From the NCBI GenBank assembly GCA_030428615.1, contig JAUIDN010000001.1, forward strand, positions 186,001 to 250,000: a stretch of 64,000 nt of DNA, written 5' to 3'. Under the pieces are notes generated by a model, which was not told the origin of the DNA, did no database searches, and saw nothing but the letters and a program-made list of their open reading frames with translations. Positions 42,238-44,948 of the stretch are shown here, piece by piece. The DNA is from Alphaproteobacteria bacterium (GTDB lineage: Bacteria; Pseudomonadota; Alphaproteobacteria; Sphingomonadales; Emcibacteraceae). Numbering within the stretch: position 1 is the stretch's first letter; the number at the start of each line of letters is the position of its first letter. A program made the translations under genes and the position numbers.

Positions 42238-43317
42238 TTACTGCCCTTCTTTAAGGCCCATATATATTTCAAGCTGTTCCGTAATTCCGGCATGTTTCAA
42301 GCCAGCCAGGCGCGCCTTGCTGAGCGCTTCTTCAGGTTCTTCATTATCAACATTGTACAAATGAGCCGCCAGAACAATTGACGCCCTATCCCCTGATCCG
42401 CAATGAACCAGTACATCACCGTCAGTCGTTGATGCGATGATACCCAGCGCTTTTTCAAGTTCTGCGACATTAATCTTTCCATCATTTATATCACCATATC
42501 GGTCATTATAGATGCGGGCACGGTGAAACTTTAGACCAGCGGCGCTTGCGAATTTTTCTTCTTCAAAGCCATTATTCTCAATGGGAGCCCGATTTGTAAT
42601 GATTGTCGTAATTCCCCGTTCTTTCATCATATTGAAGCTTTCAGCGGGAGGCTGGCTGGTGATGTAAAAGTTTTTATATTTCACCATATTGTTGATACCG
42701 CCGAATGGCTTCACCTTTTGAATGGACCGGTCAATGAACCGGTGAAATCTTGGAACCGCCCATTCGCTGTTCATTCCGGCTGCGGTTGCTGCTTCAAACG
42801 CATCCTCTTTTGAATAGCCATAATCGCGGTAAAGGATCATCCCCAAAGTTGATCCCGCGCGCTGCCCATGGCTGCAGTGGAGCAATATTTTCTGACCCTT
42901 CGCCGTTGCTTCGTCGATTGCTTCTTTCACCTTGGTGAGGGCTTCATCGCTAAATTCTGCTTCGAATGTCGGAGCGGTCAGATAAGGAATTTGTTTATAG
43001 GTAATCCCTTGATCTTCCACCAGTTTTTTTTCATCAAAACCTATATCCTCGTTAAGCTCCCGCAGGTTAATCACCAAATTAAAGCCCTGCTCTTTAAACA
43101 TCCCGACCGTTTCTTCATCGGGCTGCGCAGCGTAAACAACGTTTCCATAATGTGGCGTGTTTACGAGATTACCAAACGGTTCATGAACTGCTTCTTTTGT
43201 TCTGTCCGTCGCAGCGAGCTCTGCTGTTTGTGCACAGGCAGATATCGACACGAACGACAGCATCGTCAAGAATGCCGCTAAAAATGTCCCTACAATCTGC
43301 GACACTCTAAAATTCAT
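42238..43317 (-). CDS. Exported protein with two DSP-like (DUF442-type) domains
   Basis: A 359-residue protein. The N-terminus is hydrophobic and ends in ISAC (Cys28), a plausible lipobox. Two dual-specificity-phosphatase-like domains follow, each opening with GN(I/L)..V(V/K)Y and a Q-P motif. Domain 1 (about 48-200) has the loop HCSHGQRAG (Cys148-Arg153); domain 2 (about 205-350) has HCGSGDRAS (Cys306-Arg311). The Cys-X4-Arg spacing is the short loop of rhodaneses and of the DUF442/Blh-type sulfurtransferase-phosphatase group, and not the CX5R loop of true tyrosine phosphatases. Two similar exported proteins are encoded just upstream. AAGGA lies six bases before the ATG. Activity is unknown; phosphatase and sulfurtransferase are both possible. 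Confidence 0.75.
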   Translation of the reverse strand: MNFRVSQIVGTFLAAFLTMLSFVSISACAQTAELAATDRTKEAVHEPFGNLVNTPHYGNVVYAAQPDEETVGMFKEQGFNLVINLRELNEDIGFDEKKLVEDQGITYKQIPYLTAPTFEAEFSDEALTKVKEAIDEATAKGQKILLHCSHGQRAGSTLGMILYRDYGYSKEDAFEAATAAGMNSEWAVPRFHRFIDRSIQKVKPFGGINNMVKYKNFYITSQPPAESFNMMKERGITTIITNRAPIENNGFEEEKFASAAGLKFHRARIYNDRYGDINDGKINVAELEKALGIIASTTDGDVLVHCGSGDRASIVLAAHLYNVDNEEPEEALSKARLAGLKHAGITEQLEIYMGLKEGQ

Positions 43318-43332
43318 GACTATTCCTTTTTT

Positions 43333-43947
43333 CTAACGCTTGAGATTATCCATATATTCATCAAGTGCAGCAGCAACATTCTTGCTTGTCATACCCGCCT
43401 TTGAAGCATAATCAAGGGCCTGATCTTTGGAAAAACCGTAATCTTTATAAAGAACTGCGGCTAACGCGCCAGCAGCACGCTGTCCGGATTGACAATGCAT
43501 GAGAACCTTGCTGCCACTTGCTGCGGTTGCACTTAAAAGTTCGCTGATCTGCTCAATCGCTTCGGCGTCTACGGCCCTTGGCTGATCATTTATGCTACCC
43601 TTGTAAAAGGAAATCTGCTGAAACGCCATTCCATTCTTTTCAACCGCTTCTCTCGCATCAAACCCTACAGGTTCATCTTCAAATCTGACGCTAATTACCA
43701 TTTTAAAGCCCTCATCCTTTAATTTGGAAATCGTCGCCTCGTCCGGTTGCTTGCTATATACAACATGCCCTAGCATTGGTGTTTTATCCAGGTTTCCTAT
43801 AGGCGATTGCTGACCTTCAGATATAAGGTCTGGTTTCATGTTTGACCCGGCGGCATCCATTTGTGCGTTGGCACCAGTCGCCACAAACAACCCAACGAGA
43901 AGGGAAAGGAAAAATTTCGCCATAAAGCTTTTAAAATTATAATTCAT
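43333..43947 (-). CDS. Exported single-domain DSP-like (DUF442-type) protein
   Basis: A 204-residue periplasmic protein. Residues 1-28 (ending GLFVATGANA) are a Sec signal peptide. The single domain has the same opening as its neighbours (GNLDKTPMLGHVVYSKQPDE), the strand FKMVISVRFEDE, and the loop MHCQSGQRAAG with Cys152 and Arg157 (CX4R). AAGGAAG precedes the start. It is 15 bases from the two-domain gene and 40 from the next copy, so all three are probably one transcript. Tandem duplication with divergence is the simplest origin. Confidence 0.75.
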   Translation of the reverse strand: MNYNFKSFMAKFFLSLLVGLFVATGANAQMDAAGSNMKPDLISEGQQSPIGNLDKTPMLGHVVYSKQPDEATISKLKDEGFKMVISVRFEDEPVGFDAREAVEKNGMAFQQISFYKGSINDQPRAVDAEAIEQISELLSATAASGSKVLMHCQSGQRAAGALAAVLYKDYGFSKDQALDYASKAGMTSKNVAAALDEYMDNLKR

Positions 43948-43987
43948 AGGCCGGCTTCCTTATAAATAGTTGTTGTTCCAAACATGA

Positions 43988-44560
43988 TTACTGAATGCTA
44001 TCGACATAATCATTGTGAATTTTTGTGACAAACTCGCTGGTCATGCCGGCGTCTTTTGCCATTTCGCCAGCGTCTTCTTTTGAATAACCGGCTTTGACAA
44101 GCGCGACACCAAGAAACGATCCGGCACGTTGAGAATGGGTGCAATGCAGGAAGACTTTACTGCCATTGTCACCGGTCATTTTCACAAGTCCCAATATTTC
44201 GTCCACTGCATCAGCGTTAATCGTTCGTCCCTTCATATAAGGGACCTGTACATAAGCTATCCCCTGTTCCACCACAGCTTTTTGTTCATCGAATCCTTCA
44301 TTTTCTGCTTCCCCACGGATATTAATGACCATTTTAACATCCATATCCTTAAGCATGGCTACGGTTGCCTTATCCGGTTGATCAGCAAAAATTACATGAC
44401 CATATTGGTTTACAACCTGAAGATTTCCGAATTTTTCCTGGTCCCCTTTTATGGCAAGCGGCGAATTTTGCGCATGAGCAAAACCCGATATCAGCGCCAA
44501 AGAAAGGCATAAGAATACAACATTTCGGGTGATTTTTTTTGCAATTTTCTGAAAGATCAT
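43988..44560 (-). CDS. Exported single-domain DSP-like (DUF442-type) protein
   Basis: A 190-residue protein with a signal peptide (residues 1-30, ending LISGFAHA). Its domain starts FGNLQVVNQYGHVIFADQPD and carries the loop LHCTHSQRAGS with Cys140 and Arg145 (CX4R; the usual Gly is Ser143). It is the first gene of the three-gene set, so the operon promoter should lie in 44561-44735, a region shared with the divergent SOS-box-controlled small gene. AGGA lies eight bases before the ATG. Confidence 0.75.
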   Translation of the reverse strand: MIFQKIAKKITRNVVFLCLSLALISGFAHAQNSPLAIKGDQEKFGNLQVVNQYGHVIFADQPDKATVAMLKDMDVKMVINIRGEAENEGFDEQKAVVEQGIAYVQVPYMKGRTINADAVDEILGLVKMTGDNGSKVFLHCTHSQRAGSFLGVALVKAGYSKEDAGEMAKDAGMTSEFVTKIHNDYVDSIQ

Positions 44561-44672
44561 TTTGCGGTTCCTGCTTTTATGATTTTGGAAACTATACGGA
44601 TTTTAATGTCGCAGTTCAATAGCATTATTCGTCATTGTGAAAAAAATATTCTTGTTTTGTTCTTTTTTGTTC

Positions 44673-44712
44673 TTGACGAGCGACGCGAAAAAGAATAGAA
44701 CAATATAAGAAC
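44673..44712 (+). promoter_or_regulatory. Promoter with overlapping alphaproteobacterial SOS (LexA) box
   Basis: TTGACG (44673-44678) and TAGAAC (44696-44701) are 17 bases apart. GAAC-AATATAA-GAAC (44698-44712) matches the alphaproteobacterial LexA site, the direct repeat GTTC-N7-GTTC, read from the other strand. It covers the -10 box and predicted transcription start, so LexA would block initiation. It serves the 70-residue membrane-protein gene starting at 44736. Confidence 0.6.
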
Positions 44713-44735
44713 AAAAAACAATAGTGGAGAAAATA

Positions 44736-44948
44736 ATGGATATTTTACTACAAATCATAGGGTATAGCTTTATTCCATTAATCGGCATACTTGTGATCAC
44801 GGGTATTCATGATATTTATCAAGGGTTGAAAGAACATTTTGATTTCCGGCCTGTAAATATCACAGAACTTCCAATTCGTTTTAACAGGATAGAATTTTCA
44901 GACAATTTTGGATTTAAAAAAGTGAATAGTCATTTTTGTAGTAATTAG
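44736..44948 (+). CDS. 70-residue membrane protein, predicted SOS-induced
   Basis: A short protein of unknown family. One hydrophobic helix (about residues 3-24, LLQIIGYSFIPLIGILVITG) is followed by a mixed-charge tail of about 45 residues (KEHFDFRPVNITEL, then RFNRIEFSDNFGF). GGAG lies six bases before the ATG; an upstream in-frame GTG at 44724 is unlikely because it overlaps that ribosome site. The promoter region holds an SOS box (44698-44712). Size, single helix and predicted SOS control recall the small division inhibitors SidA and DidA of Caulobacter, although I see no sequence similarity. Reality of the gene rests on the good ribosome site and promoter; coding bias cannot be judged at this length. 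Confidence 0.55.
   Translation: MDILLQIIGYSFIPLIGILVITGIHDIYQGLKEHFDFRPVNITELPIRFNRIEFSDNFGFKKVNSHFCSN

Follow-up and report, generated by a model that had tools for sequence, protein, structure and literature searches.

The small gene occupies positions 44736–44948 (stop codon included) on the plus strand of the window, i.e. the whole 64,000-nucleotide stretch of Emcibacteraceae DNA that was analysed. It encodes a 70-aa membrane protein with a single predicted helix, an assignment based on its homologues, its codon pattern and an AlphaFold2 model. The ATG start codon (44736) follows a GGAG ribosome-binding site (44726–44729, plus strand) and the stop codon is at 44946–44948; a GTG in frame at 44724 is another possible start, the ATG being the conserved one. 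Upstream on the same strand are the −35 element TTGACG (44673–44678), whose TTGAC is exact in 25 of the 27 homologues, and, at a spacing of 17 bp, the putative −10 element TAGAAC (44696–44701). Two LexA-type boxes, both on the plus strand, accompany this promoter. Box A, GTTCTTTTTTGTTC (GTTC-N6-GTTC, 44659–44672), has a 6-bp spacer and its second half-site abuts the −35 element; box B, GAACAATATAAGAAC (GAAC-N7-GAAC, 44698–44712), has a 7-bp spacer and lies over the −10 element. Direct reading of the DNA recovers every element named in the original prediction, namely TTGACG-N17-TAGAAC, the GAAC-N7-GAAC site over the −10 element, GGAG and the 70-aa ORF. The sites returned by a generic promoter scan do not include the gene's own −35/−10 promoter.

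Downstream, and convergent with the small gene, are genes for a type II chorismate mutase (PF01817; 44961–45308, minus strand) and a TPR-SPOR protein (PF05036; 45365–46714, minus strand). We treat them as synteny markers and not as parts of any mechanism. Each is present at 24 of the 27 loci, and at least one of the two lies downstream in the same convergent orientation at all 27. The upstream side of the small gene in the window carries three tandem DSP-PTPase-like ORFs (42238–44560, minus strand) with Pfam matches that range from weak to clear. An ORF of this kind adjoins the small gene in 12 of 12 loci of the genus, and an enoyl-CoA hydratase gene takes that place in 11 of the 12 loci of genus g5.

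Family of the small gene

A search of 32 genomes of the bacterial family with the protein as query gave matches in 14, of which 13 carry boxes. The promoter pattern, which holds no protein information, matched 19 of the 32 genomes, once in each, and its reversed control matched none. Eighteen of these 19 matches precede a homologous ORF, eight of them in genus g5 where the protein search had missed the gene, so the pairing of box and ORF on which the original prediction turned recurs in relatives; the 19th match precedes the lexA gene of genome G002. A 35-residue profile built from 22 members brought the count to 27 of the 32 genomes, our own included, with E values of 1.4e-4 or better. Five of these (G002, G004, G008, G015 and G016) had contributed nothing to the profile and yet were found by it, and each of them has a box upstream. 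The count leaves out two weak profile matches taken as chance, that in G022 with E 0.18 and that in G012 with E 0.72. The small gene was not found in five of the 32 family genomes (G009, G010, G012, G019 and G022), which are drafts with completeness of 64–90%. Nor did these five match the chorismate mutase of the window, which suggests that the locus is missing from the drafts; the chorismate mutase was, however, also undetected at three of the 27 loci that have the small gene, and an empty match proves nothing.

The substitution pattern is that of coding DNA. For 26 sequences (G002, with its uncertain start, was dropped), differences at the three codon positions within codons 1–28 are 0.43, 0.23 and 0.66. 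The tails of seven 70-aa members of the genus give 0.53, 0.33 and 0.63, and the 24 noncoding bases 5′ of the start in the same seven give 0.48, 0.51 and 0.39 by position. From this substitution pattern, the synteny, the conservation of the operators and the occurrence of homologues in 27 of the 32 genomes we conclude that the 70-aa ORF is a real gene of a conserved family.

Searches of family libraries and the PDB gave no meaningful match, the weak ones involving a single member each or, in the case of the PDB, de novo coiled coils, and the Pfam matches of 22 members (E up to 1) included no LysM domain. Profile searches of 384 other genomes of the class, among which four represent a second family within this order, found no convincing homologue. 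The full-alignment profile matched five of them weakly (two matches with internal stops and three in open frames of 195–627 aa) and the N-terminal profile matched seven weakly, in open frames of 46–691 aa; these matches were rejected without reading each. A relaxed promoter pattern matched one of the 384 (G098), where the second box lacks the A/T-rich centre of the family, and this was taken as chance. An origin in phages or plasmids was also considered and rejected, there being no match in viral contigs, phage records or plasmids. Named genome contigs gave no match in a single-protein search; closer alignment revealed six relatives among them, all metagenome bins, of which two are assigned to Emcibacteraceae, three to Kordiimonadaceae and one is an unplaced alphaproteobacterium. 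No such gene from this bacterial family came up among the open-licence papers listed in literature searches, as judged from titles and the opening parts of abstracts.

LexA-type boxes at the small gene and elsewhere in the genome

The original prediction placed one LexA site at the promoter. Box B is indeed there, and a second site, box A, lies further upstream, outside the segment then considered; it is found at the matching place in 25 of the 27 homologues, with a 6-bp spacer in 18 and a 7-bp spacer in seven. Box B is exact in 21 homologues and inexact in six, one of which (G008) has unread bases there. Both boxes are exact in 20 of the 27 promoters, and 26 have one or both in exact form, which bears out the claim of a LexA-type site at this promoter. 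The homologue locus without any exact box is that of G030, a genome 53% complete in which LexA was not found. In G030 and G024 (L084, L071) an AspS gene adjoins the chorismate mutase and the operators are degenerate, with GTAC half-sites in G030.

A single exact N7 box is weak evidence, being near chance level: the window contains two exact GTTC-N7-GTTC sites against a mean of 1.62 in shuffled sequences, and the genome contains 68 against 45 for the reversed-pattern control. We regard the box as standing above chance because it is conserved across relatives. With the promoters aligned on the −35 element, the mean pairwise difference is 0.69 in the promoter spacer, near saturation, compared with 0.03 in the −35 element itself and 0.04 in the adjoining half-site of box A. 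Differences in the half-sites of box B are 0.20 and 0.27, and 0.42 in its A/T-rich centre; the T and the A immediately 5′ of box B, within the −10 element, are identical in all 27 homologues. The 27 genomes are kin and do not represent 27 independent events, and the saturated spacer serves as the control for this.

Box A, mostly with 6-bp spacing, departs from the N7 consensus. LexA of this organism probably tolerates the shorter spacer, since the lexA box itself has a 6-bp spacer in all 12 genomes of the genus in which LexA was found (L029, L098–L125), the second LexA copy of G020 being left out. Of the 34 LexA matches listed for the family as a whole, 29 lexA promoters were read. An exact box (N6 or N7) is present in 15 of the 29; in the other 14, all from genus g5, the second half-site is degenerate or absent and none is exact.

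Our genome encodes a single LexA. Its lexA gene lies on the same contig as the small gene at a distance of about 198 kb and has a box with a 6-bp spacer, which starts 20 bases after TTGAC versus 25 at the small gene; recA has a degenerate box. Boxes also precede umuDC (umuD and umuC confirmed by Pfam, PF00717 and PF00817), ssb/uvrA and an imuA-imuB-like pair, where ssb, uvrA, imuA and imuB were identified by reading translations. The occurrence of the motif at other SOS genes, on which the original prediction depended, could thus be observed. These last three cases come from 14 of the 68 N7 matches in the genome, chosen for their likeness to box B; of these 14, three precede recognisable SOS genes and at least four lie inside long ORFs. 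Taken together, the sequence evidence strongly supports LexA control of the small gene, with LexA binding and induction as the expected consequences, and the gene almost certainly belongs to the SOS regulon.

Two further sites in the same genome are worth recording. At L019:1501–2004 (contig C31, ~32086) GTTCTTTTTATGTTC is followed a few bases on by TTGACA, and the 131-aa ORF downstream, which has no Pfam match, is a candidate orphan SOS gene. At L016:1304–1515, on the minus strand (contig C5, ~31838), GTTCTTATTTTGTTC is followed directly by TTGATT, with a TATATG-like element and GGAG further on, so that it abuts the −35 element in the same way as box A at the small gene. The ORF behind it, 47 aa long, Cys/His-bearing and contained in a listed 56-aa ORF, is a candidate small SOS gene.

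The predicted protein and its possible role

Conservation of the protein is strongest over approximately the first 31 residues, which form one helix. All 26 sequences compared share M1 and G23; P14 occurs in 25 of them, F12 in 24 and I27 in 23. AlphaFold2 predicts one helix at residues 3–36, with a mean pLDDT of 93–95 for residues 11–30 and about 50 for residues 41–70. The tails differ in length and sequence among homologues, and two homologues (G011 and G008) are only 32 aa in total; within the genus the tail retains some residues and so is not junk there. Of the helix plus 45-residue tail described in the original prediction, therefore, the N-terminal helix holds for the family and the tail does not. 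Across the sequences compared, the tail is dispensable in evolution, lineage-specific where present and missing elsewhere. The helix is hydrophobic and would insert into the membrane. Its hydrophobic moment, calculated for four members and lacking an amphipathic peptide as yardstick, is low at 0.02–0.05, and a helical periodicity of conservation (permutation p of 0.04–0.13 over four ranges) is only suggestive of a conserved face.

Several small single-helix or membrane proteins of the SOS response, such as SidA, YneA and SosA, inhibit cell division (PMC4211646, PMC13396833, PMC6851548). SidA of Caulobacter crescentus, a 29-aa SOS-induced protein described as acting on FtsW (PMC4211646), is likened here by description and not by sequence: like the predicted product it is a small inner-membrane protein under LexA control, and its length is close to the 32 aa of the shortest homologues. 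Most members of the present family, however, are tailed, and the small gene has two LexA-type boxes; about 97% of the SOS promoters of Caulobacter are reported to have one (PMC12700426). DidA of the same species, with 71 aa and one predicted helix, resembles the 70-aa product in size and layout and binds FtsN (PMC4211646), but it is described as SOS-independent and induced by DriD, whereas the small gene has conserved LexA-type boxes over its promoter and a variable tail. YneA of Bacillus, ChiZ of Mycobacterium and SosA of Staphylococcus are likewise one-helix membrane proteins induced by the SOS response or by damage (PMC13396833, PMC6851548). YneA, which reaches the divisome through its helix (PMC13396833), and ChiZ differ in having LysM domains, of which none was found in 22 members here. 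SosA is reported to need its extracellular part (PMC6851548), whereas family-wide conservation of the tail is lacking here, and sosA adjoins lexA, in contrast to the ~198 kb that separate lexA from the small gene.

We favour, with a probability of roughly 0.55, the reading that the small gene belongs to the SOS genes that LexA represses in Emcibacteraceae-like bacteria and that its single-helix product inhibits division. In this scheme LexA, bound to one operator abutting the −35 element and another over the −10 element, would keep the gene tightly off, which would make sense for a product whose leakage does harm. After DNA damage, active RecA would bring about self-cleavage of LexA and the small gene would be expressed. 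The working part of the product, an inner-membrane protein in this scheme, would be its one helix, some 25 residues long and close to the N-terminus. This helix would most likely halt division during repair by packing against a membrane-spanning helix of the late divisome (FtsW, FtsI or FtsN), as proposed for SidA. Division arrest and its target are suggested by analogy only; a SidA-like action fits best because the helix is the conserved part. A narrower version, which we put forward tentatively, is that these single-helix proteins form an undescribed family of SOS effectors that may have arisen independently of SidA. All activity would then lie in docking of the helix on the FtsW/FtsI/FtsN complex, the fast-changing tail would be an add-on specific to each lineage (e.g. 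a turnover signal) and the double operator would enforce silence.

Other explanations have to be weighed against division arrest. A fortuitous coincidence of boxes with an ORF that is no gene would agree with the near-chance frequency of a single exact N7 box, but it is practically impossible in view of the spread of homologues over 27 of the 32 genomes, the coding substitution pattern, the synteny and the conservation of the operators. A small hydrophobic single helix behind LexA-type boxes, with homologues as short as 32 aa, is also what one would expect of a membrane toxin of the TisB kind, whose helix would depolarise the membrane and bring on dormancy rather than block the divisome. TisB of E. 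coli is a LexA-controlled small hydrophobic peptide, and type I toxins of its type have a long structured leader and an antisense RNA. The leader of the small gene, by contrast, is only ~27 nt if its start is placed from the −10 element, with the ribosome-binding site adjacent, and leaves no room for a structured, inhibited leader; its RNA fold is not unusual (z −0.99) and there is no Rfam match. The scan found no promoter-like site on the minus strand within the gene, a weak point as it also missed the gene's own promoter. Together with the low hydrophobic moment, these features, each a weak test, make a depolarising peptide the less likely case, and a rather improbable one.

The product might instead be an SOS-induced small regulator of another membrane machine (a protease, a transporter or an envelope sensor) and take no direct part in division. 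Examples of small one-helix proteins that tune transporters or proteases are numerous, TisB is itself an SOS-induced membrane protein with a role other than division, and none of the data point specifically to the divisome. HigX of Caulobacter is a second SOS-induced membrane protein with such a role, regulating envelope genes; it is, however, described as a four-helix transcription factor and not a small peptide (PMC13384398). On the other side, the double operator suggests a costly product, and the SOS proteins of this size and single-helix build that the consulted papers describe are division inhibitors, a biased sample, as those papers came from searching for such inhibitors. We consider a regulator of this sort doubtful, and prefer inhibition of division. 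If that reading is right, the small gene represents a known functional kind, the family itself being one not found in the literature searched.

Short and quick to diverge, SOS division inhibitors are readily overlooked in annotation. In this family the operators led to homologues that the first protein search had missed, the promoter pattern recovering eight members in a second genus. The 32-aa members amount to a natural truncation experiment in which the helix stands out as the likely active part, and with them comes a small set, made by nature, on which to test how a divisome might be stopped by one helix.
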